Shown piece by piece: positions 12,672-46,529 of a stretch of DNA of 64,000 nt; within the stretch, counting starts at the first letter, position 1, and each line of letters starts with the position of its first letter. The notes below the pieces were generated by a model. It saw nothing but the letters and a program-made list of their open reading frames with translations. It made no database searches and was not told the DNA's origin. The DNA is from Gracilariopsis chorda (Eukaryota > Rhodophyta > Florideophyceae > Gracilariales > Gracilariaceae): positions 186,001-250,000 of the forward strand of contig NBIV01000078.1 in the NCBI GenBank assembly GCA_003194525.1. Reading direction: 5' to 3'. Made by a program: the position numbers and the translations under genes.

Positions 12672-15600
12672 TTACTCAATGGATGTTTTGTTCCTAAGCC
12701 CACATAATATTGTGAGAACTTTCAATCGTTCCACCGGGAGTGACTTTGTGAATATATCAGCAGCTTGCGTGTCTGTCCTTATTGGCTTTATGTCAATGAC
12801 TTCAGTCTCAACAAGCTCTTTGATATGGTGATGTTTTAGAGCTATGTGCTTGTTCCTTTCAGAGACTCTCGGATTCTTAGCTATCGACAGCGCAGTCGAG
12901 CTATCCGAATATGTAGATATTGGATACATGTCCGGTTCATCGTCAAGGGCCTTTTCAGCGCTCAGCTCCCAGAACAGTCTTCGGAGCGAGGTCACAATTT
13001 TCCCACAGTACGACATATCCACATATTCAGCTTCACCAGACGATAAGGTAATTAGAGATTGCTTCTTAGTCGTCCACATAATTGGTGATTCGTTCACCTT
13101 TATTATAACTCCCGTCGTGGACTTCAGCGTTTCGCGGCATCCAGCCCAATCAGCGTCACAATACGCTTCCATTGGAGCCGTAGTGTTAGAGGGATAGAAC
13201 AAGCCAAGACTCTTCGTACCTTTGAGGTATCGTAACACTCTCTTCGCTAGTCCAACATGCCGCAAGCATGGGTCATGGACTTGCCTTGCCAGCATCGAGG
13301 CTGCGAACATGATGTCAGGCCTGGAGTTCACGGCCAAATACATCAAACAACCTACCAACTTCCGGTATCGGTTGTGTGTTCCTCTAGACACGGCGCGTTC
13401 TTCATCGTGGCGGCTGGTCAGATCTTCTTTGGTGGGCAGGGGTGTTTGAGAAACGTTACAGTTCTCAAGCCCATTCTCTTTTATTATCTTATCGATATAA
13501 CGAGTCTGGGTGACCATTATGCCTTGATCGTTTCGCTCGATCTGTAGTCCCACAAATGACTTTGCCTCACCAAGGAGCTTAACCTTGAACAGGTTTGTCA
13601 TCTCAGCCCTGAAGTCCTGGAGTAGACTATATGAGTTGCAGGCCATAAGAATATCGTCCACGACTATGACGAGTATTAGGGTACCACTCTTGGACGAGTA
13701 CAGGTATAGCCGACTGTCGGTGGTAGACTGTCTGAATCCCAAGCGAATCAACTCGCTGTGCATCAATGAGCCCCATATGTGTCCGGCTTGTTTCGCTCCA
13801 TATATCGATTTTAGGAGTAAGCAAACCTTTCCTGGGACAAAGGAGGATCCAGAGGAATTGGTTGGTTGCTCCATGATAAGAGGCTCATCTAGATCACCAT
13901 AGAGATACGCGTTGCTCACATCCATGGTCTCTAAGATCAAGCCTTGTGCTGCGGCTTTTGCGAAGACCATGCGGATGGTTTCGAGTCTCGCAACCGGTGC
14001 GTATAGGGTCTCAGGGTCAAAATCGATGTAGGGGCGTTGCATGTCGCCCCGTGCAACGCAACGTGCCTTAGGTAGAATACGAGGTGGGTCTTCGCTAAGG
14101 AGTTTGGCAATGAACCTCCAAAGGAATGGTAAAGGTTTCATCCCCGGCTTCCTGTCTACAAGCCTCCATGTCCCTCTTTCTACCAAGGCATTGTACTCCC
14201 TGTCGATAGCTTCGGCCCATCCTCTCATCTTCCGCGCTTCGTCGAAGTTCTTTGGGACTCTGCCGTCATCCCTAAGACCTTCGGAGCGTGAGAAGGATAC
14301 GAGACAGTGTGCCAGCGATGCATCGAGGTGTTCCTCGGAATCTTCATCCATGTTCACCTCGGCATGCTGCCTTCGGAGGGAAGAGAAGTCGATCAGGTCT
14401 TTGAAAGATGGTAGTTTGTCCTTGCTTACTTTGAAGTCTGCCTTGCGGCACTTTATTACTTTATCAGTCGATGGGATGTATACCCTGTACAAAGTGCGGG
14501 GACTTTGTATACCAACAAAGTTACCAGGAAGTGCCCGGGGTAGTAGCTTCTTATTCGGTGCGGTGTCTGATCTGTATATGAACGCATGTCCTGGCTGTCC
14601 AAACTTTAATAGGTTGGTGAAGTCAGGCTTCTCACCAAACCACAGGGTGTACGGGACTCTCATGTCTACCCGTTGGTTTGGTAGTCGATTCCTAAGATAG
14701 TTTGCGTGAGAGATTGCCTCTTCCCAGAGTTCCTGTGGTAACTTGGACTCAAACAGGAAGGTGCGGGCAACTTTCCAAAGATCTTGAATGGTCTTCTCCG
14801 CGACGCCATTTGATTGATGCGCATATGGTGGGGTGAATTCAAGGATGATGCCATTCTCCATCGCATATGTGACGAAGTCATCGGAGCGATTCTCACCCGC
14901 CCCGTCAAGGCGAACGCGGTACATTCGATTCGGAGGCACCTCGTTTTCCGCGCGAGCCTTGTACCAACGAATGGATTGGAAGAATTGTGTCTTTTTACTA
15001 AGGAAGTAAATGGCACTCGCCCTTGTCCTGTCGTCGATAAGGACTTGCATATATTTCGATCCTTGCAGCGAAGGTGGCGTGATGGGTCCGCTGAGATCGG
15101 TGTGAGTGAGTTCGAGGTTCCTGCTCACAGTTTTTTCAATTTGTTGCAGTGGAGCCCGTTTTTTTCCTGCTTGTATGCATGGGTTGCATATGATGTTGCG
15201 TACCTCCTCACTTGAGAATCGTGGTACCCCGTGAGATGTCTCAACGCACTTGAGTAGTTTGTCTCGGCCAGGGTGGCCGAGTTTCTCATGCCAGTCGTGA
15301 GGGTTGTCACCAATCTGTCGCGTCGCCATGTGAGCCATAGGGGAGGGTAAGGGGTTGGGAAGTGGGTAGAGTCCGTGTCTTGGCCTTGATGTGAAGAATA
15401 CCTCTCCTGTTCTCTTGTTTTTTATAATGAAGCTGGTTTCTGCCTCAGTGGAAAATTCGACGTCTACTTGTGATGCCAGAGTGGAGAGGGAGATTAGGTT
15501 GGAGTCGAAGCTTGGGGTATGCTTTGCTGATAACATCACACCGTTTGCGCCGAAAGGTAACTTTATTTTCCCAAGTCCCACGCTGTCGGATGTATTATCG

Positions 15601-16670
15601 CAAGTATTCACGGTTTGTGGTGGGGTTGTGTGATATTCCCAGAACAGGGACTTGTCTTTGATGAAGACGTGACTTGCTCCTGAGTCCAACCATGTCGGTG
15701 TATGATGCTCGGAATGTACGCTGGCGTTGGCGATCGCTAGGAATCCGCGGTGGTTTTGGTTTTGCTTGTTGTGGTTGTTGTTGTTGTTGCGGTTGGCATC
15801 CTGTCGATGGTTTCTTTATTGGTTAGTCCCGTTTCGGTTTGAATCCCACGAGCGGTTTGTGCTATTGCTCTTGTTTTTACCGTGTTGAGTGGTTTCCGAG
15901 GACTTGTTGTTGGTTTTCCTCCAGCATTCGGAACGAATGTGTCCTATACGCCCGCAGTTCCAACATATTACGCCTCTTTTCTTTGGCTTTGTGTGCTGTC
16001 TTTTGCCTTGTGAAGACTTCTTTGCGGCCGGGTATGGGTGTGTTCGGTCGTTTGGTTTCGAAGCCGTAGTGTTGTTTGGGCGATGAGCCCTACGGTCCAT
16101 TTCTGATCGCACTAGGGATACTACCTGGTCTTATTCCATATTTGTAGCGTCAGCCAGTAGTGTGATGGGCATCAGTGACTCTGGAAGGGAACGAAGTAAC
16201 GTGGCGGTCCTTTCCTTATCTGTCACTGGGTCGCCTAAGCGTGCGAGTTCTAAGAAAGTGGTTTCAAGGGTAATGAGGTGATTTTGTATGTCCTCACCGT
16301 CTTTATATGCCATGGTGCTAAGCTTTTGGCGAAGGTTCAACTTTGACTGTATGTTGTCCTTCTTATATGTGGCCTCTAGTTTGGTCCACACTTCCAAAGC
16401 GGAGCAGTACTCCCTTTCCAAGAGTTCTGATACAGCGACAATCGGCTGTGTTCCAAGGTTCTGCACGATCGCGGAGCGTGCTTTGCAATCGGCATCGTCC
16501 CAGCGCTTTCGGGTTGCTGCGCTTCCCTCTGTGGGTCGAGGTTCGGTGAGGACGAAAAGGGATTGCGATGAGTGCATGAGATCCCTTACGTAGATGCGCC
16601 AAGTGTAGTAGTCGGCGCTCCCCTGTAGTCGGGGTATTCTTTTATTGTCGTATTCTCGCTCTGTGTCCAT
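12672..16670 (-). pseudogene. Ty1/copia gag-pol polyprotein, broken only by two TAA codons
   Basis: One reading frame of about 1330 codons runs from the ATG at 16670 to the TAA after residue group NKTSIE. It is interrupted only by TAA at 16133-16131 and 15818-15816. Order: gag (RLQGSADYYTWRIYVRDL near the start); CCHC knuckle CWNCGRIGHIRSEC; Asn-rich linker; protease WLDSGASHVF; integrase zinc finger and core (HTDLSGP, DDRTRASAIY, PPYAHQSNGVAEKT); reverse transcriptase (NAYLYGDL, VVVDDILMAC); and RNase H (AYCDADWAGC, SSGEAEYVDM). Copia domain order (integrase before RT) is clear. No LTR pair was found. A TATA box lies only 45 bases before the ATG, too near to leave room for a 5' LTR remainder and primer site. 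Confidence 0.92.
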
Positions 16671-16714
16671 CGCGGAGTGTTCTCGACGCGAGACTTATCC
16701 AGAGGGGCAGATCG

Positions 16715-16722
16715 TTTATATA
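16715..16722 (-). promoter_or_regulatory. TATA box close to the gag start
   Basis: TATATAAA on the minus strand, 45 bases upstream of the gag ATG. It may be a host-like promoter of a captured polyprotein gene or a chance match. Confidence 0.45.
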
Positions 16723-16729
16723 CTTCACC

Positions 16730-17344
16730 GGTCCCCTACCGGGCGAGGGATCCTTCTGCCACTCTTTGAGTAGCCGGGCCCACTGACAAGAGATACTATC
16801 TCTGGTACCCTAAGGGTCAGACCCCTGGCTCCGACTTAGACTCTCTCGGTGAGATGCGCTTCCAGCTGCCTGTCTATGTCCTGCGCAATCCAGGACTAAG
16901 GTGCGTGCAACGTACGGATCGTCCAGGGAATGGTTAATGACCAGTAGATATGCCTTCACCAATACACTCCCTCTAGATCCTTGCGGCTGCTTGCGTGGCG
17001 AGATGTACTCCGTATAAAGTTCTTGTCCTTACTAAGATCCGGGCCGAACGACGAGACACCCTGTCCCCGAACGAGCGCAACACTCACCCCAGCGGAGCCG
17101 GTTATACGGCAAGTGCGCAACCCGCCGGTTTAGTTCAAGTCCCCAGTCGATTCCCAACCGGTATTCGGCTTGCGAATCTTAGCTCAGCCAAGTGCTAACT
17201 TCCCTTCCGGGGTAATAGCGGCGGAGGCCCTGTTCGGGACTTTTGTTCTCTCGTCTTATGTGTCGAACTTCCCTTACGGGGTAATCGGTGGCGAGGCCTT
17301 ACTCAGGTCTTACGGTTGGCTCTTACCCGGGTGCGATAGAGTGC
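16730..17344. other. GC-rich spacer with a 68-bp spaced duplication
   Basis: AACTTCCCTT-C-CGGGGTAAT at 17198 recurs as AACTTCCCTT-A-CGGGGTAAT at 17266, each followed by a similar GGCGGAGGCC/GGCGAGGCC stretch. No gene, and no tRNA that I could fold with confidence. Confidence 0.45.
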
Positions 17345-17622
17345 GTGCCGGGGGGTGGGGTGGGGGGGGGCACGCTCTTCTTTGTTGGTGTCCGCGGGGG
17401 GGGGGGGGGGAAGGTGGCAGACCGGGCGCACACTTGCCCTTGATGCTGGGCGGCGGGGGGGGGGGGGGGGGGCAGGGGGGGCACACTTTTCTTTGTCGGT
17501 GTCCACGGGGGGGGAAGGTGGCGGAGCGGGCGCACACTTGCCCTTAATGCCAGGCGGGGGGGGGGGGAAGGTGGCAGAGCGGGCGCAGACTTGCCCTTAG
17601 TGTGCCAGGGGGGGGGGGGGTA
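17345..17622. repeat. Minisatellite with long G tracts
   Basis: Three degenerate units combine G runs of 8 to 18 bases with the conserved blocks TTTGTYGGTGTCC, AAGGTGGCRGA and ACTTGCCCTT. Strand asymmetry is extreme, with G on the plus strand. The tract can be expected to form G-quadruplexes and to be length-unstable and error-prone in sequencing. Confidence 0.85.
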
Positions 17623-17908
17623 AACCCTTTCCGATCGGTGCCACGGGTTGTCGTGTACACGGATACGGTGTCTGGTACTTCGGCACCTCAATGCTCCGCG
17701 ACGCTGTAAGCGTGTCACGTCCACATGTGTATACCGTCTTTGCATCTTGTGACGCTCATATGCGTAAACGTCCCCCACCCCGTGGCGAACGTGTTAATGC
17801 TCTACTTCTTCAATAGCTCAACGACAGACTCGTTATTCCCACCGAGCAGGGATTACAAACACGAACGCTGGTGTATACTCGCTCGTAGACGTCATTCTCA
17901 TCGATATA

Positions 17909-28503: not shown

Positions 28504-28555
28504 TGATATTTTGGTCGGTGCAACTGGGTGTCAAAGTGAGCAGCGCGATGAGCGG

Positions 28556-28929
28556 TGTTAACTCACCCTGACTCAGCGCCTTTTGTGTCAGGCGCTGAGC
28601 AGAAAGAGATGGAACAGACCATCTCACCATCCTTGGGGGTGGTGAGAAAGCGTCTGGCCTTCTCACCATCCCCTAGGATGATGAGATGGCCTGCTTACAA
28701 TACCGCTTGGCATGCAGACCCGTAGGATTTCATTGTAGTCGAGAAAGACGAGTAGCGTCTTTCTCTACACTACAAAAAGGGAGGAAGAGAGCTTGATCGT
28801 CCTCAACTCTCTTCCCCAACCCATCTTCTTCATCAACTATCATCTACCTAAGTAAAACCAATTTGGGTTTTTCGATACTAGTCGTAACTACCGCTGTATC
28901 GCTTTTCATATAATCGAGTTTTATCGACA
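28556..28929 (+). repeat. 5' LTR of copia element 1
   Basis: Contains the palindrome TCAGCGCC..GGCGCTGA (28573-28598) and an alternating series CTCACCATCC, GTGGTGAG, CTCACCATCC, GGATGATGAG (28623-28685). A stem GAGAAAGACG / CGTCTTTCTC (28741-28765) lies just before the TATA position at about 28771. It is followed directly by TTCCGGAATTA rather than a TGG-type primer site. Confidence 0.93.
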
Positions 28930-28966
28930 TTCCGGAATTAATCGGAAGCTCGTTATCTTGATTAAA

Positions 28967-29762
28967 AGTAAGTTCAAATAAGCTCTCTGCAAATTTGATA
29001 AATTCTGTTTATTGTAATACGGCGTTGTTAAGCTACGGCGAAGGACGTATAAGACATGATTACTAATTTACACGATTCTTCTATTTTCTAATTTGCACAG
29101 TGGCTAATTTCTATTGTCAAAGTATAGTCCCTCGTAACCAACCAGGGCCTACTGTTGAAGTAGTTCAACACTTATACCCTATCAAAGTGGAGGAACCCGC
29201 CACTCCATCACCGCACTTTACATTGCTGGATAATCAGCCGCCGCCACCGCTCCAACTATTGGCACCGACCAACAATCAACCAACAGCCAATCAGAAGCCG
29301 AAACGCACACCGGTGCTGCACCAGCTCGTTGACAGTGACGTCGACAGCGAGCATTTCACACCGCCCCGCCGGCACCCCAGTGTAATTGACCTCGAGGCAG
29401 AAGAAGTACCCGTACCACGAGTCCCACGTGGCAGACCGACGCCGAAACCCAAACCTTTCATACAAAAACTTCGTGTTAAAAAGGGCAGACTGTATCGGGA
29501 TCGTTGCCAACCGAAACCACGTAGCCGCAACGTGGCCAGATCAAAGAGATTTTGCAAACTGTGTGACATACAGTGCAATTCTGCCAAAACGTACTTCGAC
29601 CACAAGCAGTCACGCGGTCACAAGACACGTTTACAGAACAAACGTGATCCTCCGTTCTGCAAAACGTGTGACCGTCATTTTGAGTCACACCACCACCTCA
29701 ACCGTCACCTAAACGGCAAAGATCACCATAAGGTGCTTTACCGTAAGAATTTAAATAAATAA
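28967..29762 (+). CDS. Extra ORF of copia 1: double U1/matrin-like zinc-finger protein, start codon made by splicing
   Basis: The leader intron is 28968-29100 (GTAAGT, branch-like TACTAAT at about 29060, TTTGCACAG). Joining A28967 to TG at 29101-29102 makes the ATG, and codon 2 begins at 29103. The unspliced RNA has no ATG for this frame. The protein is about 220 residues. The N-terminal two thirds are Pro/Gln-rich and then basic (about residues 110-150). Two zinc fingers of the form C-x2-C-x12-H-x5-H follow: FCKLCDIQCNS...HKQSRGH and FCKTCDRHFES...HLNGKDH. This spacing is that of U1-C/matrin fingers, which bind RNA or DNA. It lies before gag, which is unusual for copia. Element 2 carries a homologue and fragment 3 the same intron and its N-terminal part, so it belongs to the family. 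It may handle RNA splicing, export or packaging. Confidence 0.82.
28968..29100 (+). other. Leader intron of copia 1
   Basis: 133-nt intron, donor AAAA/GTAAGT, acceptor GCACAG/TGGCT. Donor, branch-like region (after ACGTATAAGAC) and acceptor position are conserved in all three copies. Confidence 0.75.
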
Positions 29763-29890
29763 ACTTCCATTTGCTTTTACGCTTTACTTCAAAACCTATT
29801 AGTAGTGTCTGATAAAGATAGTATTTTCTTAAAACAAAGACACTATAGGTAATAACTAAAAAGAACAGTACAGTTACTAGTTAGTACACT

Positions 29891-31494
29891 ATGCCTCCAC
29901 TTAACGGAAACTTCACAACTAATGTCAGGTATGCCAACCCACAGCAACGACAATTCATAGAGTTCATTAAGAACATTCAAGAGAATAATGCCGATGCTGA
30001 ACCTGCGCACATTATTGAACTTTTGAGAACAGGGTACCCACCAGACAAATTACTCACATATTCTATTTTGAGTAATGGGTTGTTAATGCGTAAGCTCGCA
30101 AAGTTCCTAGAAGATCGAGGAATAACTCTTGCAGAACACGAAAGTAATCACCTCTTGAAAAGAATAGCTAAAACTATTTTCGAGGTATCAAACCTAGAGG
30201 ATGCTTTCGCTGCAATAGATTTATTCGAACAGACCCCATCTTCTGCCCCGAACAGCCGCAATCAACCAGTCAGGAACACCGAACCACAAGAGACCGTCGA
30301 AGCTGAGACGATACGCGATGCCTCACCAAGCAAACGTACAATTGAGCAAAACCGCCAACGTCAGCCATGGCGCTCTCCAATAGCCAACAATGAACCACAA
30401 ACAAACTTTGGAGACCAGCGAGACAAGATCGCTCATTATATTGCCTCTCGTTTCAAAGATGAATCTTCCAAATTCTCAGGGGCTCTTGGCGAATGTTGGG
30501 AGGAATTTCTAAGCGATTATAAGTATGCCGCTTTAGATTACAATCTATCCAACCACCAAAGACTCCAATACTTGCACCATCTCTTGCGTGGAAATGCAAA
30601 ACGGTTTTACGTACAAAACGTTGATGGCAGAGTGCGAAGCTTCAGGGAAGCTTCAGCAATCATGGAAAAGGAATACAACTCTCTCTCCCGTCAGAACCGC
30701 ATTGCTATCTATCTACGCAACCTACGAATCCAGAAATTTGCTTCAAAGAGCTCTTCATTAAGCGACGCTTTGGAGAAACTCCATGAAGAAATTTCCAAGT
30801 TGTCTCCACAAGGCCCTATGCACTGCCGATCCGAGCGCAACCGGATTGAATATTTACAGAATGCTGTTATTGGCATTCATGGGCCCGAGACGCCTGCAGC
30901 AGAGCCAATGCGGGACTAATTAGCTATCACGAACTTTATGGACAGTTGGAAGCCGCAATTCAACTAGATCAGGAAGAGAAAATCGGTCGCATGCGAGATC
31001 AGAAAAGTCTTCAGTTAGACTCCCTCTCTACCGAAGATTTCCAGAACCCCGACACGACTGAGACGTTTTATGCTGGCCAATCTCGGTACACACGTCATCC
31101 AAATTCCACGAACAGGGCAAAATATCGTCAATCCAAGAACAAGCGAAACGTTAACTGTTGGAATTGTGGTAAATTTGGACATGTGATAGCTGAGTGTAGG
31201 CAACGCAAGGACCTCACCAACACTGCCGCCAACCGGGTGCAATATTTGCAACGTAACGGCTGTAAGGATCAGAACAAGGCTTTGAAACGCGTTTTATACG
31301 AAATCTGTCAACAGCTCGAAGAATCTAGTGATTCCGATGAGTTTGAAAGTGCTGAAACATTCTTTGCATGCAATGGCGATGCAGATTTTAGTGAGGGCAA
31401 CGAAAATTCATATCCTTCTGAACAATTCTTTGCGTCCAACTTTGGAACGCAAAGTAGCGAGCCATCCCTCTCGAACTGCCTTGAAGATTTTTAA
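29891..31494 (+). pseudogene. Gag of copia 1 (one frameshift)
   Basis: Starts with MPPLNGNF at 29891. The capsid region continues to about 30870, where a one-base loss changes the frame. The unchanged frame stops at 30917-30919, and the true continuation (ARDACSRANAGLISYHELYGQ) is in frame 1. The nucleocapsid part has the CCHC knuckle CWNCGKFGHVIAEC (about 31159-31200). An acidic tail ends at GAT TTT TAA (31486-31494). Element 2 has its own indels in the same stretch at other positions, so the capsid break is decay rather than a programmed shift. Confidence 0.88.
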
Positions 31495-34400
31495 GTGGGA
31501 GTACTAATGATTTCTGCCGTAGTGCTCCTCCCAAGCAGCAGAACAAAAAGGACCAGACAAGTCCTCCAACGGCTCACCACGAATCATTCGTTTTTGTACA
31601 CGTAAGCAAGCACGATACAGTTCACACACACCTCGTTGGAACCTTATCGACATACATAGCGTAAAGACGAGCTCATTTGACAAAAAACGACGTGAATTTC
31701 AAGGCGCATGCCTGGACTCTGGCGCACAACAATCCGTAGTGGGAAAGCAACAAGCCCACGCGTACTGTAAACTTGTTGGCATTCCATTTAAGCCGAAACA
31801 ATCCAACAAAGCTTTCAAATTTGGAGATGGCGTATACTTCAGCCGTGGAACCATGCAAGTCCGCATTCCAATCCCTGGCAACACTTTTCTTCCACTAGAA
31901 ATTGATGTTGTTGACGCCTCAGTACCGCTCCTTATTGGACTCGACATCTTGGACTTACACGCTCTTGTACCGGACAACGTGGAAAACATGCTTATCAATA
32001 AGAAGCTCAATTGGTCAATCCCAATCACGCGAAAATTCGGTCATATGTACTTAGAATGGGACTTCTCTGAGACACTTTACACAAAGAGTGAACTCCGCAA
32101 GATGCATATGCACTTCTACCATCCTAGCGCAAGCAAGCTTTTCAACTTGATCTCCCGAGCAAAGCCAGAAAATGCCACACCTGAGACCAGGAAACTCATC
32201 GAGCGTATATCAAAATCATGTGCCACGTGCCAACGTTTCACACCCCGGCCACAGTCCTTCCAAGTATCCGTTCCAGGCAAAATAATATTCAACAGTGAAA
32301 TTGCTTTGGATCTTATGTTTTTGGACAAAATACCGGTACTACACGTTGTTGATACACAAACGCACTTCAGCTCTGCAGTATTCCTTAAGAGTCAAACCAC
32401 CGAAGCGATCTGGTACGCATTTCTCAGTTGTTGGGCAACACTTTACACTGGATATCCGGACAGAATGAAACTGGATAAAGCCAGACAATTTACATCCGCT
32501 CGATGGAAAGAACTGACGAGCATGGCTGGAATCACCTTACAGTTCTCAGGCGTTGAAAGTCACAACTCCCTTGGCCCAGGCGAACGATATCACGAACCCT
32601 TACGACGTATATACAAAAAGATCCGTTACAGTGAGCCCGATGTACCTATCGCACTAGCCCTTCGTCTTGCTGTAAAGGCTATGAACGATACAGTGAACCC
32701 CGAAGGACTTGTACCTTCACTACTTGTATTTGGAGTTCTTCCCCGCTTCCCGCCCTTTAGCACAGAACTTCCAAATCATGAGGAGCGAATGAGAGCTCTT
32801 CAACTCGCGCGCACCGAAATGGAAACCATCACCTCGGAGCTTCGTTTGCGTCGAGCAATCGTCGCTCGCATTCCATCTGCCGCAGCAACAAACTTGAAAG
32901 TTGGACAAGAAGTTCTAGTTTATCGAGAGAATCTGAAGCCAATAAAATGGACTGGACCATACAAAATTGTGAAAATTGACGACAAACAAATCTACATCAA
33001 CCGCAATGGCGAAACAGTCCAACATTCTATTGCGCAAGTCAAGCCCTTCTATCGTGACGAACTAATGAACAACCTTCATATTTGTCTACAACCAATACTT
33101 CCTAGTGACTTTGAACTATATGATGTTCAAATCATTGAAGTGTTAGGTCCTTCCGATGAACGTCGGAACCTACCAGCATTCAGTGAAGCCAAACGAAAAG
33201 AGCTGGCAGGATTAATATCCCGTGGAACGTGGAAAGTCATCAGAAAGGACGAAGTGTCAGAAGATGCCAACATTCTCACTGGCAGATTTGTGCTCGCCAT
33301 CAGAAATCCAGAAACTGATGAAGAGATATTCAAAGCCAGATTTGTCGCCCAAGGGCACAAAGATCCCGAAAAACCTCTTCTTGTACATAATTCTCCTAAT
33401 CTGCGACAATATTCAACCCGAATTCTCGTTATTATCGCCGCTATTCTTGGATATAGAGTATGGAACACAGATGTTCGCCAAGCATACTTACAATCCGCCC
33501 AGAAGCTCATGCGTAAAGTATATTTGAAACCTCCAAAAGAATTAGTTATTCCACCAGAAATGTTGTTGGAACTTCTTCGCCCTCTATATGGACTTTCAGA
33601 CTCTGGAGACTATTGGTACAGAACAATAACCACCCATCTGAAAGAAGACCTAGGAATGAAACCGACAAAGGGAGATCTGTCATTATTTATGAGACACGAA
33701 CAGTCAAAGCTTATTGGCTTAACCGGTGTTTACGTAGATGATCTCCTCCAGTGTGGAAACGAGCAGTTCCTGCAACAGGCAAAACGCACCGTTCAGAAAT
33801 TTGAATCAAAGGACTTGGAAATGGATTGTGCTCTATTTGCAGGCGTAAGATTGCGCACAATAGACAAAGGATTCTCACTCAGTCAGAAACATTATACCAA
33901 ACGATTGCGAATTCTTCCGAAAGATTGCACCTTCTCCGATTTCCGTTCTCTGAGACATAAACTTGCTTGGTTAACTCACACGCGACCAGACATTTGCTGT
34001 GCTGTTAACATGGCTGCTCAAGTTACGGAACCTTCTTTCTCAAAGGAAGATGTGAAAAACATCAACAAAGTCGTAACGCATATTCAGCAGACTCAGGACG
34101 TAAGTCTGAATTATGTTAAACTTGATGTCAATTCACTTCATCTTAAGGTATATTCCGATTCATCAATCGCCAACAACACAGATAACTCATCCCAAATCGG
34201 ATTCATCATTCTTCTCGTGGATAAGTTTGAAAACTGCAACATTCTTCACTTCTCAAGTCACAAAAGCCGGCGCATTACCCGATCCGTTCTCGGAGGAGAA
34301 CTATACGCATTTGCAGATGCCTTCGACGTTGCTTACGTTTTCAAACATGACTTAGAGTCAATACTCGGAAAACAATACCAATCACAATGTTGACTGACTC

Positions 34401-34665
34401 AAAAAGTCTATTTGATGTAATAACAAAAAGCTCATCGACATCTGAAAAGCGACTCATGATCGACATTTCAGCAGTTCGTGAAGCCTACTCGAACCATGAA
34501 ATCTCCGATGTTGGATATGTCACTTCCAATAACAACCCAGCCGATTCATTTACAAAAGTTAAGAACTGCGATGCTTTGAACCAACTACTAGTAACCTCAA
34601 AATGCGTTTTAGATATTGAACAATTAGTAATTCGTGAACCAATGCGACAATTGTTAGCCGTATGA
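31491..34665 (+). pseudogene. Pol of copia 1: protease, integrase, RT, RNase H (two frameshifts)
   Basis: The -1 frame after the gag stop opens with FLSGSTNDFCRSAPPK. A one-base loss near 31543 moves the frame to that of the long ORF (31739-34393). Protease: CLDSGAQQSVVG near 31712. Integrase: zinc-binding HMHFYHPS..CATCQRF, core LDLMFLDKIPVLHVVD, LDKARQFTS and E in GVESHNSLGPGERYHE. RT: NTDVRQAYLQ and VYVDDLLQCG near 33735. RNase H: KVYSDSSIANN and GGELYAFADA. A further one-base loss near 34370 puts the RNase H end (MLTDSKSLFDV...ADSFTKVKN) in frame 34387-34665. Copia domain order is intact. Confidence 0.9.
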
Positions 34666-34678
34666 AAAGAGAAGGGAG
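34664..34678 (+). other. Polypurine tract of copia 1
   Basis: TGAAAAGAGAAGGGAG lies directly before the TG of the 3' LTR. It is the expected plus-strand primer. Confidence 0.8.
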
Positions 34679-35052
34679 TGTTAACTCACCCTTACTCAGC
34701 GCCTTTTGTGTCAGGCGCTGAGCAGAAAGAGATGGAACAGACCATCTCACCATCCTTGGGGGTAGTGAGAAAGCGTCTGGCATTCTCACCATCCCCTAGG
34801 ATGATGAGATGGCCTGCTTACAATACCGCTTGGCATGCAGACCCGTAGGATTGCATTGTAGTCGAGAAAGACGAGTAGCGTCTTTCTCTACACTATAAAA
34901 AGGGAGGAAGAGAGCTTGATCGTCCTCAACTCTCTTCCCCAACCCATCTTCTTCATCAACTATCATCTACCTAAGTAAAACCAATTTGGTTTTTTCGATA
35001 CTAGTCGTAACTACCGCTGTATCGCTTTTCATATAATCGAGTTTTATCGACA
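34679..35052 (+). repeat. 3' LTR of copia element 1
   Basis: 374 bp, with six single-base differences from the 5' LTR by eye. TATAAAAAG at 34894-34902 is intact here. Confidence 0.93.
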
Positions 35053-35476
35053 AGCGGAGTAGGAATTCAACTGGGCTGCCTTGACAAGTTGTTGAGTCGC
35101 CTCTACCAGCTCTCTAATTTGACAAGAGGCTTTCTATCTGGTCGCCGTGGAAATACGATTGCAAAGCGATCTGGTTTACACGTGCAGTGGAAGTAACTAA
35201 AAATGTTTTAGAAGTGCGTAAAAGAACGGGTTTATCACTTGAACATTTGCCTTTCTTCTTTTCCAGCGACCTCCGCTACCTCAGCGACCCCGTCGATTGT
35301 TCACGTTGTTACAGAGGAATAGTATCAGTGGGGCATTAAAATAATACAGCTCTTTCGGGCGACTTGAGAATTGGTCTTTTCTTGTTTATTTTGTATTGCA
35401 CAGTCGCAAGCTGTGGCGCATGTGTGTCCACCGTGGCAATCAGCGGTACAGTATACAACGGTTTTGACTGCTGTAA

Positions 35477-36142: not shown

Positions 36143-37462
36143 TCACTGCTTGAGCATGACGGTCACCTGAATGCTTTCGCCAGCCGCCTCCGCACCGACC
36201 GTGATCTCACTGTTCACGGTCTTGTTATCCCAATAAAACGGCACCTCCGACGAATCGCGGTACAAAAAGTATGGTGCATTTCGTCCCGTGTACACTCGTT
36301 TGCCCTGCAAGTAGAAATCCACTTTTGAAACCGGCTTATTCACAACTGCCTCGATTGCAATGCGCGAGTAAACACTGATATCAATTACACTGCCGTTTCG
36401 CATGGTGCGACTCGGAATCTTATCGGCCCAAAGCAAAAGTTGTTGGAATACACCTGTACCAAGTTCACCGTTGCGCGCCTTTCGTCTTCCGTAGCTGAGT
36501 TTGGTCACTTTGGCTGTAGCCTTGGGAGGAGGTGCAGATCTTCCACCGCTGTTGTACGGTTCGATTGCAATATCTGCACACTGATAGTATTCCTCCGTCA
36601 TTCGCTCAGGGCCGCCGCAGGGAGCTTTCCGTCTTGCCACGCCTCCGATAGCATCACCTTGTCCAACACAGGTTCCCCAACTGGGTCGATCCGGTCCATC
36701 AAAGTAGTCCAGTACTCCAGGCGGGTTACAATCATTGGCGGAAACCCAATACCACTGCAACACACAATGCTTGCAATGCCAGTCGAGGGGCAGTTGAAAT
36801 TGTGCATACTGTGGCGGGTAGTAGTCGTAGCCAGACATAATATCGTGAGAACACGGGACGTACCAACGACCGGGATAATTTCGATCTATGGGTCCACATT
36901 TGTACGACTTTCCCGAATCACACTCCGCGTTCGGCGCGCGGTTGAGCTGCATACACGCACCGGACGTGAAGCAGCTACGAGAGATATCTCCGTTTGGACA
37001 CTTTGCAGCATCGCATAGGTGAAGCTCCATAAAGCCGTTATGATGAGCAGTGATGACGGTTGCGATTCCCACGGTGCCTCCCTGTCGATAGCGTGATACA
37101 ATGGTTGCATTGTAATAGAACTCGCCGCCCTTGAGATGATCCTGCGTTCGCCAAACGGCGTCACCGCATACGCCGGCGCGCCAGATGAATTTGGGGTCAT
37201 ATGGGTCGTAGGGCGTCCAGCCTCGAGCGCCGGCGGCGACCTGTTGCGATTGCATGCCGGTCAGTGTGGAGCTGTTTTTGACACCGGCTGGAAAGAGCGC
37301 GTAGTAGTCGCGCGGGGCGTCGTCGTCGACGGTGGACGGAATGAATTCGGATTGAAGAAAGGCTCCGCGCTGTCGCGGTTGGACCATACAGCCGTGGGCG
37401 ATGACCAGCGGCGAAAGACACGAGAGCAGCGCGAGGAGAAGGAGGCTATGGAGCGAACTCAT
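36143..37462 (-). CDS. LPMO-like chitin-binding type-4 secreted protein
   Basis: 439 residues, intronless. The signal peptide (residues 1-22, ...CLSPLVIA) is followed by His23 (HGCMVQPRQRGAF). A mature N-terminal His is the hallmark of the copper 'histidine brace' in lytic polysaccharide monooxygenases. The second brace His is H140 or H141 in TAHHNGF. Further family motifs are GVCGD (98-101), HCKHCVLQWYWVSANDC (229-245) and EEYYQCADI (290-298), with an axial Tyr candidate. Paired cysteines occur throughout. Residues about 345-439 form a separate beta-rich domain (SVYSRIAIEAVVNKPVSKVDFYLQGKRV...). It best resembles AA15-like LPMOs, or red-algal proteins annotated chitin-binding type 4. Likely role: oxidative cleavage or binding of a wall polysaccharide. 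The substrate cannot be told. Confidence 0.85.
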   Translation of the reverse strand: MSSLHSLLLLALLSCLSPLVIAHGCMVQPRQRGAFLQSEFIPSTVDDDAPRDYYALFPAGVKNSSTLTGMQSQQVAAGARGWTPYDPYDPKFIWRAGVCGDAVWRTQDHLKGGEFYYNATIVSRYRQGGTVGIATVITAHHNGFMELHLCDAAKCPNGDISRSCFTSGACMQLNRAPNAECDSGKSYKCGPIDRNYPGRWYVPCSHDIMSGYDYYPPQYAQFQLPLDWHCKHCVLQWYWVSANDCNPPGVLDYFDGPDRPSWGTCVGQGDAIGGVARRKAPCGGPERMTEEYYQCADIAIEPYNSGGRSAPPPKATAKVTKLSYGRRKARNGELGTGVFQQLLLWADKIPSRTMRNGSVIDISVYSRIAIEAVVNKPVSKVDFYLQGKRVYTGRNAPYFLYRDSSEVPFYWDNKTVNSEITVGAEAAGESIQVTVMLKQ

Positions 37463-39557: not shown

Positions 39558-39938
39558 TGTGACTTCTGTGAGGACTTAGGTGTGCTCACCGTCCTTATCA
39601 GACGGTGAGACACAAAGAAATGGACCAGACCATCTCACCATCCTTGGGGATGGTGAGAAAGCGCCTTGCCTTCTCACCATCCCTAAGGATAATGACATGG
39701 CCTGCTTACAATGCGGCATGCATTGATGCGTGCATCTAGCTTAGTCCGAGGAAGACGAGTAGCCTCTTCCTCTCTCTACTATAAAAGGGACAGAACAGAG
39801 CGCAACCCCAGCCTCTGTTCTCAACCAACTTAACTCCAACTACTTCAACTTTTGTTGAAGCAAAGAAATTTTCTTTTTTGGGCTGTCTTTAGCTATTGCT
39901 ACAGACCGCCTCTTTTTTTTACGTATTAATTCACGACA
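39558..39938 (+). repeat. 5' LTR of copia element 2
   Basis: Starts TGTGACTTC and ends TCACGACA. Contains the palindromes CTCACCGTC / GACGGTGAG (39585-39609) and CTCACCATCC / GGATGGTGAG (39634-39657). The stem GAGGAAGA / TCTTCCTC (39748-39772) lies just before TATAAAAG at 39780. Followed by TTCCGGAATTA. Confidence 0.9.
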
Positions 39939-39982
39939 TTCCGGAATTATCCGTGGATAATCGTAGAGGATTACTGTATACA

Positions 39983-40738
39983 AGTAAGTCATTCGACACC
40001 CAAAGGATTGAAAAATTTTGTTGGTGTTAACTACGCGTGGTCAACTAATACGTATAAGACGTAACTACTATCCACACATTTTTTCCAATTTATATCCTTT
40101 TAGTGTCCATTCAGAATATAAATACATTGGCTCGTAAACAGTCAGGCACTGTCTTTATTCATAATTCAATCAATCTTACGGTAACCGTAGAGCATCTGGC
40201 CTCCCCGCATCATCACCACCTTGCCGTACTACGAGCGCCACCAACCAATCAGCAAGGACCGAACATATTGGACCATCTGACCCCTTCGCAAGTCTACAGT
40301 GATTCAGAACCAGGCCACCACTCAACTATATCCAGCTGCAAGCCTCCAAGTGTCTTTGACCTTGAAGCAGAGGAGGAACCCGTGCTCGGCCACAGCCAGA
40401 CATCACCAGTGCTAGTGCAACCAAGCACCAGTGCAATCGGAAGGTCCACGAGAAAAAACCCAAGTTTTTGGCTGACAAATCACAACCGCTGAATAAAAAC
40501 GACACGTGTGGCGCATGCCAAACGCTTTTGCACTTTGTGCAAAATTCAATGCAACAGTACAAAGACATTCTTTGACAACCTTCAATCAAAAACACACCGC
40601 AACTGCGTGCAGTGCAAGCGCACTCCATCTTACTCGTCTACCTGTTACCGCTCATTTGAGTCCCATCATCAATTGGTACGTCACAATAACGGCAAAGCAC
40701 ACCACAATGTGCTTTATAATCACAATTTAAATATATAA
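39983..40738 (+). pseudogene. Extra zinc-finger ORF of copia 2
   Basis: Leader intron 39984-40103 (donor CAA/GTAAGT, acceptor CTTTTAG/TGTCC). Splicing joins A39983 to TG at 40104-40105 to form the ATG, the same device as in element 1. The N-terminal part is open to a stop at 40490-40492. The zinc-finger part continues to 40738 with FCTLCKIQCNSTKTFFDNLQ and a second finger (SFESHHQLVRH) that has lost cysteines. Homology to element 1 is clear in the acidic FDLEAEE block and in the fingers. Decayed. Confidence 0.75.
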
Positions 40739-40875
40739 ACACTCTTGGTTTTGTCTTTTACGTCAACTTCACTTATCACTATTAAAAAGCTATTGAAGTA
40801 AAAGTAACGTAAAGATTAACACAACTCTATAGTACTTAAGCATACAATAGGTTGTAATACTTGACATAGTTCATC

Positions 40876-42477
40876 ATGCCGCCCCTTAACGAAAATTTGA
40901 CTAGCAACATAAGATATGCAAATCAGCAACAACGACAATTTATCGAACTCATTAAGAAGATTCAGGAAAACGATACCGCAGCAGGGAGTGTTCAAATAAT
41001 TGAATTTCTAAGAACTGAATACCCTCCAGACAAGCTATTTACTTTTACAACTTTAGTTAATGGGCTGCTTATGTGCAAGTTCGCAAAGGTTTTAGAAGAT
41101 CGTGGAATTAATCTCGCAGAACATGAAAGCGGTAATCTCTTGAGAAGAATTGCCAAAACGCTTTTTGAGGAGTCTAATCTTGAGGATGCTTTCACAGCTA
41201 CAGATTTATTCGAACAAACGCTGGCGCCTGCCCGACCTTCACGACAGCAAGCCTTGAGATATGCTGAAGGAGAAGAAGACACCGAGGATGAGCAGCAACG
41301 TGAGCTCTCACCTCCAAAACTTGTTAATGAACAAAATCGCCAACGCCAGCCGTGGCGTCCTCAAACCCTCAACATTGAGCCACAGAATAACTTCAGAGAC
41401 AACAGAGATAAGCTTGCGCATTTCATTTCGTCTCGATTCAAACATAACTCTTCGGAATTTTCCTGAGCTCTTGGTGGGTGCTGGAATAAGTTTCTGAGCG
41501 AGTAAAAATACGTTGCCTTGGATTACAACCTATCGCATCATCAGAAATTTTATTATTTACACCATATTTTGCGTGGAAAAGCAAAACGATTTTATATAAG
41601 ACATATTGATGGCAGAGTGCAAAGCTTTAGAGAAGCTTCAGCAATGATGGAAAAAGAGTACAATTCGCTCTCTCGTCAGAATCGCATTGCTGCCTACCTT
41701 TGTAATTTACGAATTCAGAAATTCGTGTCAGAGAGTTCCTCATTAAGTGCCACATTGGAGAGACTCCACGAAGAAATTTCGAAATATGCCCCGCAAGGCC
41801 CATGCACTGCCGCCCAGAATGCAGTCGCATTGAGTACTTAGAGAATGCTGTAATTGGTCACTCTCGGGCACGAGATGATGCAGCAGAGCCAATGCGGGAC
41901 TGATTAGCTATCAAGAACTTTATGGACAGTGGGAAGCCGCAATTCAACTGGATCAAGAGGAGAAAATTGGTCGTATGCGAGATCAAAAGAGTCTGCGCTT
42001 AGACTTAATCTCCACCATTGATTTCCAAAACCCCGACACGTTTGAAGCCTTTTTTGCTGGCCAATTTCGATACGCACGCCATCTGCGTTCCACAAACCGG
42101 ACTAACTTTCGTCAATCCAAAAGCAGACGAAATGTTACCTGTTGTAATTGTGGTTAATTAGGACATGTTATTTCCGAGTGCAGGCAACGCAAGGACCTCA
42201 CCAACAATGCCGCCAATCGTGTGCAATATTGGAACTCACCGGCTGCAAGGATCAGAACTACGCTTTGAAACGCGTCCTATATGACATTTGCCAACAGCTC
42301 GAAGATTCCAGTGATTGGGATGAATTCGAAAGCGCGGAAACATTTTTTGCTTACAACGGCGAGGAAGGTATTAGTGCACACAACGAAGACTCTGATCCTT
42401 CCGAACAATTCTTTGCGTCGAATTTTGGAACGCAAAGTACCGACCCCTTTTTCTCGAACTGCCTCGAGGATTTTTAA
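40876..42477 (+). pseudogene. Gag of copia 2, multiple breaks
   Basis: Starts MPPLNENL at 40876. Breaks include TGA at 41464-41466, TAA near 41503, a one-base loss near 41800 and stops in the zinc knuckle (CCNCG-stop-LGH). The end is GAG GAT TTT TAA (42469-42477), the same T5-AA junction as element 1. It aligns to gag of element 1 along its whole length. Confidence 0.88.
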
Positions 42478-45400
42478 CTGGGGGTACTTATGAACTCTGC
42501 CGTAGTGCTGCTCCCAAGGAGCAGAAAAAGAAAGGACCAGACAAGTCCTCCACTGGGTCACATCGAATAATTCGTCTTTGTACGCGCAGGCAAGCACGTT
42601 ACAGTTTCCAAACACCTCGTTGGAACCTTATTGACATTCACAATGTGAAGACAAGTTCATTCGACAGAAAACGACGTGAATGTCAGGGCGCATGTCAAGA
42701 CTCTGGCGCAGAACAATCCGTAACAGAAAAACAACAGGCCCAAGCGTGTTTTAAACTTGTAGCCATTCCATTAAAGCTGAGCCACTCCAACAAAGCCTTT
42801 AAATTTGGAGATGGCGTATACTTCAGCCAAGTAACTATGCAAGTACGCATTCCATTGCCTGGAAACACTTTCCTTCCACTAGAGATTGACATTTTTGACG
42901 CATCTGTCCCTCTTCTTACTGGTCTAGCCACTTTGGTTCTACCTGCTCTTATACCTGACAACGTGGACAACATGCTAGTCAACAAGAAGCTCAACTGGTC
43001 GATACCAATCACAAGAAAATTCGGGCATATGTACTTAGAATGGAACTTCTCTGAGATTTTTTACACCAAGAGCGAGCTCCGAAAAATGCACATGCACTTC
43101 TACCATCCAAGCACAAATAAGCTTTCCAACTTGATCTCCCGAGCATAGCCAGAAAATGCCACACCCGAGACCAGAACACTCATCGAGCGTATCTCAAAAT
43201 CATGTACCACGTGCCAACGTTTTGCATCTCAGCCACAATCCTTCCAAGTATCCATTCCAGGCAATATAAAATTTAACAGTGAAATTGCTTTGGGTCTTAT
43301 TTTCTTGGATAAACTGCCAGTTTTACACGTTTTTGATACACAAAGGCACTTCACCTCTGCAGTATTCCTAAATAGTCAAACCAAAGAATCAATCTGATAT
43401 GCATTTATCAGTTATTGGGCAGCATTATACACCGCTTATCCAGACAGGATGAGAGTGGATAAGGCCAGACAATTCAGACCGCTCGATGGAAAGAACTGAC
43501 AAGCTTGGCTGGAATCACTTTTCAATTCTCAGGCATCGAAAGTCATAATTCCCTTAGAACTGCTGAACGGTACCATGAACCCTTACGTCGTATCTACAAA
43601 AAGATTGGATACAGCGAGCCTGATGGCCTCGTCACCTCAGCCCTTCGACTTGCTGTCAAGGCTACGAAAGATACAATGAATCCCGAAGGACTTATACCTT
43701 CACTACTCGTGTTTGGAGTTCTTCCTGGCTTTCCAGCGTTAAGCACAGAACTTCCAAATCATAAAGAGCAAATGAGAGCTCTTCAAATTGCGCGCACTGA
43801 GAGGGAGACCATCACTTCCGAGCTTCATTTGCGCCGTAAAATCGTCGCTCGCATTCCATCGGCCGCACCGACAAGCTTGAAAGTTGGACAAGAAGTTCTA
43901 GTTTATCGAGAAGATTTGAAACCAATAAAATGGACTGGACCCTACAAAACTATAAGAATTGATAACAAACAAGTCTTTATCAATCGCAATGGTGAAACAT
44001 TCCAACATTCTATTGCACATGTCAAACATTGTCATCGTAACGAACTAATGGAGAAACTTCATAGTTGTCTCCAAGCAATACTTCATAGTTATGTTGAACT
44101 CTATGGTGTCCCAATCAATGCAGTGTTAGGTCCTTCCGATCACCGTCAGAACCTAGCATCATTCAGTGAAGCCAAACGAAAAGAGCTGGCAGGACTAGTA
44201 TCCCGCGTAAAGTGGAAAGTCATTAGAAAAGATGAAGTGTCAGAAGACGCCAATATCCTCACTAGCCGCTTTGTGCTCGCCATCAAAACTTCTGAAACTG
44301 ATGAAGAAATCTTCAAAGTCAGATTTGTCGCCCAAGGGCACAAATGCCAAGAAAACAGTTTTCTAGTGCACAATTCGCCTAATCTAAGACAATATACAAC
44401 CCAAATTCTCGTTACCGTCGCCACTATTCTTGGATATAGAGTATGCAACACAGATGTTCGTCAAGCATACTTGCAATCCGCACAGAAGCTCATGCGTAAA
44501 GTATACCGGAAGCCTCCAAAAGAACTGGAACGTCCAGGACATATGGTATTGGAACTTCTCCCCCCTCTTTATGGACTTTCAGACTCTGGTACCGAACATT
44601 AACAACTCATCTGAAAGAAGACCTAGGAATGAACCCGACGAAAAAAGATCTGTCACTGTTTATGAAACACGGACAGGCAAAGCTCATTGGGTTAACCGGT
44701 GTTTACGTAGATGACCTCCTTCAACGCGGAACCGATCAATTCCTGCAACAGCCAGAGATCACCGTTCAGAAGTTTGAAGCAGAGGACTTGGAAATGGATT
44801 CCACTTTATTCGCAGGCGTCAGAGTACGCACCACCGATAATGGATTTGTCCTAAGTCAGGAACATCATGCCAAACGATTGTGGGTTCTTCCAAAAGATTG
44901 CACTTTCTCTGATTTCCTTTCATTGAGACATAAAATTGCTTGGTTGACCCACACGCGACCAGATATTTGTTGTGCTGTGAACATGGCTGCTTCAGTTTCG
45001 GAGCAATCTTTTTCAAAGGAAGATGTGAAAAACTTCAACAAAGTCGTAACACATGTTCAGCAAAGTCAAAGCGTGAGCCTGAAATATGTTAAAATTGATT
45101 TCAATTTACTTCACCTCAAAGTATACTCTGATTCATCATTTGCCAACAATGCAGACAACTCATCTCAGATCGGATTCATTATTCTTGTCGTGGACAAGTT
45201 TGACAACTGCAATATTCTTCATTTCTCAAGTCACAAAATTCGACGCGTGACCAGATCAGTTTTAGGAGGAGAACTATACGCATTTGCAGATGCATTCAAT
45301 ATAGCTTACGTTATCAAACACGACTTAGAGTCAATAATTAGGAAGAAAATTCCAATCACAATGCTCACTGACTCCAAAAGTTTATTTGACATAATAAGAA

Positions 45401-45627
45401 AAAGCTCATCGTCATCTGAAAAGCGACTAATGATCGACATTTCAGCAGTTCGTGAAGCATACTCGAACCATGAAATTTTTGATGTTGGATATGTCACCTC
45501 CGACAACAACGCCGAATCTTTCACGAAAGTTAAGAACTGTGATGCTTTGAACCAAATTATATTTACTTCCAAATGCATTTTGGATGTTCAACAATTAGTT
45601 ATACGTGATTTTCTGCGACATTTGTAA
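42474..45627 (+). pseudogene. Pol of copia 2, multiple breaks
   Basis: The -1 frame is open without interruption from the gag stop through CRSAAPKEQKKKGPDK into the protease (42645-43148). The protease motif is ACQDSGAEQSV. Integrase is broken near 43147 and 43390-43500. RT and RNase H follow in 43505-44602 and 44629-45627, with VYVDDLLQRG near 44705, KVYSDSSFANN and an intact RNase H end (ITMLTDSKSLFD). Copy 2 shows the unbroken gag-pol linkage that copy 1 has lost. Confidence 0.88.
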
Positions 45628-45649
45628 GCAATACAAAAGCAGGAGGGAA

Positions 45650-46020
45650 TGTGAAAACGTAGGTATGCTCACCGTCCTTATCAGACGGTGGAACACAAAG
45701 AAATGGACCAGACCATCTCAACATCCTTAAGGATGGTGAGAAAGCGCCTTGCCTTCTCACCATCCCTAAGGATAATGACATGGCCTGCGTACAATGCGGC
45801 ATGCATTGCTGCGTGCATCTAGCTTAGTCCGAGGAAGACCAGTAGCGTCTTCCTCTCTCTACTATAAAAGGGACAGAACAGAGCGCAACCCCGTTCTCTG
45901 TTCTCAACCAACTTAACTCCAACTACTTCAACTTGTGCTGAAGCAAAGAAATTTTCTTTTGAGGGCTGTCTTTAGCTATTGCTACAGGCCGCCTTCTTTT
46001 TTACGTATTACTTCACGACA
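45650..46020 (+). repeat. Second LTR of copia 2, shared with partial copy 3
   Basis: 371 bp, TGTGAAAACG...TCACGACA. It is followed by TTCCGGAATGATCC, i.e. the start of an internal region, not host DNA. Confidence 0.88.
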
Positions 46021-46522
46021 TTCCGGAATGATCCGTGGATAATCGTAGATGTTTACTGTTCACAAGTAAGTCATTCGACACCCAAAGAATTTAAAAATTT
46101 TGTTGGTCTTGACTACGGGTTGTTAACCAGTACGTATAAGACGTAATAACTAACCACACATTTTTTTATTTTATATTCTTTGTGTCCAATCAGCATATAA
46201 CTACAGTGGCTCGTAACCAGCAAGGCACTGTCTTTATTCATAGTTCAATCTATCTTACGGTAACCATAGAGCACCCAGCCTCCCTGCATCGTCACAACCT
46301 TGCCGTACTACGAGCGCCACCAACCAATCAATAATGACCGAACATATTGGACCATCTGACCCCTTCGGAAGTCGACAGTGATTCAGAACCAGGCCACCAG
46401 TCAACTGTATCCAGCTTCAAGCCTCCAAGTATCTTTGAACTTGAAGCCGAAAACGTACCCATGCCCCGCCGCTGCCAGACATCACCAGTACCAGTGCAAC
46501 CAAGCACCAGTGCAATTGGAAG
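46021..46522 (+). pseudogene. Copia copy 3: leader, intron and N-terminal part of the zinc-finger ORF
   Basis: Same leader as copies 1 and 2. Donor CACAA/GTAAGT at 46066, acceptor AACTACAG/TGGCTCG at 46206, with A46065 plus TG 46207-46208 again giving an ATG. The frame reads ARNQQGTVFIHSS and is stopped by TAA TGA near 46330. Homology to copy 2 ends near 46522, so the copy is truncated before the fingers. Confidence 0.8.
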
Positions 46523-46529
46523 CTCCTCC

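Follow-up and report, generated by a model that had tools for sequence, protein, structure and literature searches.

Gypsy of Drosophila belongs to the Ty3/gypsy elements, and its Env product is encoded downstream of pol. The start codon of its env subgenomic RNA is assembled by splicing, with AT supplied by a donor in the gag region and G by the env acceptor (PMC2585583). In Rice tungro bacilliform virus (RTBV) and the badnaviruses, long ORFs are free of AUG, about 900 nt are scanned to the polyprotein, and another protein is made from spliced RNA (PMC5902531). Partial splicing of the RNA of Drosophila copia and barley BARE1, both of the copia superfamily, alters the product that is translated (PMC3735527), and extra ORFs can lie on either side of gag-pol (PMC7264820). 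Red algae are known to harbour copia elements, namely the GalEa-like PyRE10G and CoPorcru (PMC3587641, PMC2806351); a text search of the main texts of these two papers for "splic" gave no occurrence. Further related literature includes PMC5408684 along with the two red-algal papers.

Here we describe, in a 64,000-nt stretch of Gracilariopsis chorda DNA (the window), a copia LTR retrotransposon that probably carries a start-codon switch operated by splicing. In the mechanism that we propose, a single transcript would begin in the 5' LTR. Removal of a leader intron of 65-133 nt would join the last exon base, A, to TG, creating the sole AUG ahead of gag, and the spliced RNA would direct synthesis of ORF1, a small basic protein with two zinc fingers of the matrin/JAZ type. 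We infer that splicing occurs and that it is partial. Were the intron retained, this stretch would offer no AUG in any frame, and ribosomes would scan about 1.1 kb, passing over the ORF1 codons, until they met the AUG of gag; gag and gag-pol would then be translated from the genomic (unspliced) RNA.

The features of the three copies in the window are collected in Table 1. Copy 1 has the TG...CA pair of LTRs and the flanking agcgg repeats of a Ty1/copia element, and its pol ORF (listed at 31739-34393, with the frame disrupted near the 3' end) has the corresponding domain order in Pfam, with rve at 197-271, its 30.0 bits lying slightly below the 32.6 cut-off, followed by RVT_2 at 508-722. One pol relative is annotated in Porphyra umbilicalis. 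The gag frame of copy 1 diverges from its relatives near residue 329, and an open frame of 536 aa is present in several other copies; copy 1 is not an intact element, and its own gag is broken. Gag ends in GAT TTT TAA (31486-31494 in copy 1, and L109:1123-1132), and pol follows in the -1 frame with an overlap of about 10 nt, possibly by a -1 frameshift at a U run. Copy 1 is adjoined by an LPMO_10 (lytic polysaccharide mono-oxygenase) gene on the minus strand (36143-37462), which matches proteins of Agarophyton chilense (75%), Gracilaria domingensis (67%) and Gracilariopsis chorda (54%). Its closest named relatives, those of Agarophyton chilense and Gracilaria, place the host with the gracilarioid red algae and not with the oomycetes. 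At 93-2579 the window has what we take to be helicase-like ORFs resembling those of Helitrons.

Table 1. Features of the three copia copies in the window; introns are predicted from splice signals.
Feature	Position	Strand	Remarks
Target-site duplication agcgg	28551..28555	+	matched by agcgg at 35053-35057
5' LTR, copy 1	28556..28929	+	TGTTAAC...TCGACA; 98% to 3' LTR over 300 nt
Exon 1, copy 1, untranslated, post-LTR	28930..28967	+	ATG-free; last base A28967 would be base 1 of the start codon
Predicted intron, copy 1, 133 nt	28968..29100	+	GTAAGT donor, block ACGTATAAGAC, branch-like TTACTAAT, CACAG acceptor
ORF1, copy 1	29101..29762	+	220 aa once A joins TG; zf-met and zf-C2H2_jaz zinc fingers
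Spacer from ORF1 stop to gag, copy 1	29763..29890	+	ATG-free
gag, copy 1	29891..31494	+	CCHC zinc knuckle
pol region, copy 1	31495..34678	+	frame -1 to gag; integrase, then RVT_2 reverse transcriptase, copia order
3' LTR, copy 1	34679..35052	+	followed by agcgg (35053-35057)
5' LTR, copy 2	39567..39938	+	start approximate
Predicted intron, copy 2	39984..40103	+	A39983/GTAAGT ... TTTTAG/TG
ORF1, copy 2, decayed	40104..40492	+	129 codons from the created ATG, then stop
LTR common to copy 2 (3') and copy 3 (5')	45650..46020	+	start approximate
Predicted intron region, copy 3	46066..46206	+	homologous acceptor lost; second in-frame ACAG/TGG at 46206

The sequence-only reading of this DNA had placed an A/TG junction in each of the three copies. 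For copy 1 it was exact to the base: A28967 is followed by GTAAGT from 28968, CACAG runs to 29100 and TGG begins at 29101, the joined sequence reading ATG GCT AAT and continuing for 220 codons. The junction of copy 2 is equally exact (A39983/GTAAGT and TTTTAG40103/TGTCC), its ORF stopping after 129 codons. For copy 3 the donor A46065/GTAAGT stands, but 46206 is not homologous to the acceptor of the other copies. At the position that is homologous the sequence is TTCTTTGTGTCC, in which AG is lost, and the site that had been assigned to this copy is a second in-frame AG/TGG found slightly deeper in the ORF in group B, the copy 2-like elements defined below; from it, ORF1 of copy 3 is a broken frame of 42 codons. 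The acceptor position, said to be conserved in all three copies, is thus not conserved in copy 3. The intronic block ACGTATAAGAC was also described as conserved, which is correct for groups A and B, both of which have it, but in the third family there is only a similar, altered stretch upstream of CTAAC. At 29048-29070 of copy 1 and at equivalent positions in both groups, ACGTATAA lies a few bases upstream of the branch-like site, and it is altered in family C; it is possibly a splicing regulator, a packaging signal or a site for the ORF1 protein.

Copies 2 and 3 have one LTR in common, so that copy 3 follows copy 2 as the second member of a tandem pair. Group B leaders repeat head to tail about every 6.1 kb, both at 39567-46600 in the window and on contigs C1040, C673, C520, C312, C1017, C1058 and C136 of the same genome. 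Some small contigs may be largely built of tandem B units, which may reflect unequal recombination, one-LTR circles or an effect of assembly.

The genome (91.3 Mb in 1081 contigs) contains at least 114 ORF1 matches. From 108 loci and the window we obtained 78 distinct copies extending from the leader to the start of ORF1, 11 of them in group A (copy 1-like) and 67 in group B; this sample was gathered partly with intron-bearing queries, and in the tandem-array survey 40 of 62 candidates were scored, of which 30 became loci. Donor GT is present in 9/11 group A and 57/67 group B copies, the homologous AG/TG in 10/11 and 54/67, and a second in-frame AG/TG in 61/67 of group B, where the branch-like TTACTAACC is found in 50/67. 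Five of the 67 group B matches start at or beyond the donor, and their donor letters are meaningless; the remaining 73 copies cover the donor, with GT in 65, A/GT in 62, the homologous AG/TG in 62 and either acceptor in 71. ORF1 reaches at least 205 aa in 23 of the 78 copies and is shorter in 55.

It had been asked of further family members whether A/TG is always kept. In the 23 copies with the longer ORF1 it nearly is: donor GT and A at -1 (A/GT) are each found in 22, the homologous AG/TG in 21 and one or other acceptor in all 23. There are exceptions. In C231 and C254, both with a near-full ORF1, the homologous acceptor is gone and splicing would depend on the second site, and the match of C15, also near-full, starts beyond the donor. 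A genomic ATG is found at the first acceptor in C245 and C50 and at the second in C59, C190 and C228; in these five copies ORF1 is shorter than 120 codons. The combination of a GTAAGT donor, a TACTAAC or TACTAAT branch-like site, a pyrimidine-rich tract and YAG supports a real intron, whose removal would supply the only AUG of ORF1, in line with the suggestion that ORF1 would be a product of spliced RNA only.

Searches with gag extended the comparison to distant copies, C30, C195 and C34 being 32% identical over most of the query and C4, C10 and C63 41-45% identical over part of it. The leaders of this third family, C, carry a related two-finger ORF upstream of gag, and its junction has A followed by GTAAGTATT (donor GTAAGT), then CTAA(C), then CTAG/TG in frame, with an intron of 65-67 nt, half the length of that of copy 1. 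Six copies were fetched and five of them cover the leader: both sites are intact in two, the donor in three and the acceptor AG/TG in four, L110 reading AG/CG at this position. A donor-gap-acceptor pattern run over the genome gave five exact matches (including the two intact C copies), all of them in frame, by coordinates, with an ORF1 match, and the reversed control gave none. Judged by sequence, the layout common to three diverged families is more than chance and, because it has been kept across them, no sequence accident.

The layout also bears on a different origin of ORF1, in which it would be translated from unspliced RNA from a weak GUG formed by the acceptor G and TG, splicing being rare or absent. 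The unspliced RNA does have GTG at the start of ORF1, since wherever the acceptor is AG/TG the genomic sequence reads GTG in frame, and a weak AUU start ahead of AUG-free ORFs has been described in a pararetrovirus (PMC5902531). However, translation from GUG leaves unexplained the conserved A/GTAAGT donor, the branch-like site and the pyrimidine-rich tract, as well as the identical layout of family C with an intron of half the length, and we consider it very unlikely.

The region upstream of gag avoids ATG. We counted ATG from the end of the LTR to the gag ATG, about 950 nt, and compared the counts with 200 dinucleotide shuffles in the 43 of 78 copies whose donor and gag start were both recognised by pattern. 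All 43 fell below the shuffle mean, with 0-7 ATG against 10-14 expected and at most 4 of 200 shuffles as low; the opposite strand has 10-23. No ATG at all occurs in this stretch in 18 of the 43, which lends support from the sequence to the earlier suggestion that gag would be made from a separate, unspliced RNA. Of the 23 copies whose ORF1 reaches 205 aa or more, 18 were included in a further count: nine leaders have no ATG, five have one, two have two, one has three and one has five, and ATG ranks first or second among the depleted trinucleotides in 17/18. The stretch of gag just downstream (602 nt in L059, 950 nt in the others) is not depleted, with 13-18 ATG against 9.6-13.5 expected, and the stretch from a TATA-like box to the leader is ATG-free in 16/17.

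The avoidance extends through the coding region itself. Beyond the start, no Met codon occurs in three ORF1s, those of copy 1 and two group B copies, nor does an ATG in either of the other frames, against 2.3-3.0 out-of-frame ATG expected from synonymous-codon shuffles (31, 56 and 93 of 2000 as low). The claim that the ATG exists only in spliced RNA agrees with this: the upstream ORF has no internal AUG in any frame and none at its start when unspliced, and the A/TG junction would supply one. The longest ATG-free stretches on the plus strand of the window, 835 and 789 nt, are in the leaders of copies 1 and 2; copy 1 has a single private ATG, located in its intron. The copies of family C are decayed, and two of the five show little ATG depletion. 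Their ATG counts and shuffle means are 4/14.5, 6/13.9, 8/13.2, 13/15.3 and 9/13.1, with 0, 1, 7, 54 and 17 of 200 shuffles as low, respectively; 26 of their ATG columns are private to one copy and five are shared.

Another copia element on the minus strand of the window (12672-16670) lacks ATG over the 950 nt leading up to its gag-like ATG, where 8.0 would be expected, and a 1056-nt ATG-free stretch (16670-17726), partly of C-rich repeats, directly precedes that ATG. No ORF1-like gene was seen in the leader of this element. AUG-free leaders are therefore not peculiar to the family that bears ORF1, and AUG avoidance indicates scanning to gag rather than, by itself, a switch. Scanning to gag may be more widespread here, in which case ORF1 would be a passenger hidden in a scanned leader.

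In group A the created AUG is flanked by A at -3 and G at +4, and in group B it reads CCA-AUG-U. By the usual rule the former is a strong start context and the latter a weak one; splicing would supply a start of unequal strength in the two groups, and the weak context in B means that gag could also arise from spliced RNA by leaky scanning. This would be the only source of gag if the leader intron were removed constitutively, leaving a bicistronic spliced RNA with ORF1 made from the created AUG and gag by leaky scanning. The weak AUG of group B and the absence of AUG within ORF1 would both let ribosomes pass, but the created AUG of group A is in a strong context, and new copies must derive from intron-bearing RNA: a query consisting of exon 1 only was followed by an intron-like stretch in 38/38 loci, and a search of the genome with three junction patterns (A and B junctions, at most 3 mismatches) found no intron-less copy. 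The genomic footprint of spliced RNA is thus absent, as packaging of unspliced RNA only would explain. Moreover, 13/14 introns are ATG-free, which would matter only if unspliced RNA is translated; with 0-1.9 ATG expected in each, this is weak evidence, mildly favouring translation of that RNA. We regard constitutive removal as unlikely. A second splice from the leader to gag was also considered. No conserved acceptor could be made out by eye upstream of the gag ATG in two copies, and such a splice would leave the avoidance of AUG unexplained.

ORF1 is a zinc-finger protein of 210-220 aa encoded in an ATG-poor leader, with Pfam matches to zf-met (4.5e-9) and zf-C2H2_jaz (2.5e-7), both above the cut-offs. 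A search of solved structures gave no close one (best E 0.0079). Among 5.8 billion proteins there was one match, P0001, 97% identical, which cannot distinguish an ATG from a GTG start, and neither ORF1 nor the pol relative P0002 found a match in scans of viral contigs. Comparison of copy 1 with the older group A copies C35, C95 and C10 gives dN/dS of about 0.2 at dS 0.8-1.0, and with C237 0.29, showing at the level of codons that ORF1 has been under purifying selection. Among C35, C95 and C10 themselves the ratio is about 0.7, as in decaying copies, and in group B pairs it is 0.36-0.97. These higher ratios, the many near-identical B copies in tandem arrays and the 55/78 copies with ORF1 below 205 aa are what one would expect of a relic, whose layout the copies inherited from a common ancestor and whose ORF1 product has lost its function or never had one. 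The low ratio between copy 1 and the older A copies argues against this, as do the protein identity of about 50-55% between A and the better B matches and, in family C, a homologous ORF1 whose splice layout is the same; a relic is extremely unlikely.

The type of finger and the basic middle part suggest that the ORF1 protein probably binds the RNA of the element. We also considered, as a doubtful extension, that ORF1 is a Rev-like factor, or one that feeds back on splicing, and comes from spliced RNA only. The protein would bind the intron of its own element, for example at the ACGTATAA-like stretch a few bases before the branch-like site, and would slow splicing or export and package intron-bearing RNA, so that the element would switch from the synthesis of ORF1 protein to that of Gag-Pol and genomes. 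If this is true, the created start codon would report the state of a switch by which a non-retroviral copia element regulates itself.

In the splicing-operated switch that we favour, the protein made from an RNA would depend on a single splicing event. For red algae, the layout provides a clear and testable way in which an accessory gene placed before gag could be expressed, and ORF callers that require an ATG will miss genes of the ORF1 type. In open-licence full text, outside which most subscription papers lie, we found no description of a splicing-made start combined with AUG-free leaky scanning.

As in gypsy env, splicing would make the start codon of a retroelement gene other than gag-pol. 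In the gypsy RNA as described the codon is split AT/G, whereas here it is split A/TG, the ORF is in the leader upstream of gag, and its coding region is AUG-free. As in RTBV, there is a long upstream ORF without internal AUGs through which ribosomes would scan; in the account consulted, however, RTBV ORF I has a weak AUU and ORF II a leaky AUG, both on unspliced RNA, while here the upstream ORF is AUG-less unless spliced. Splicing of copia and BARE1, as reported, yields a Gag-only RNA, and here it would yield an RNA for an accessory ORF. The likeness to PyRE10G and CoPorcru, also copia elements in red algae, is one of superfamily and host group. The elements with extra ORFs (PMC7264820) likewise have an additional ORF, no splicing-created start being apparent in the part of that source drawn on. 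A splicing-made start codon and an AUG-free coding leader are thus each known separately; the present analysis adds that the leader encoding ORF1 is AUG-poor, and the red-algal element would combine the two devices.
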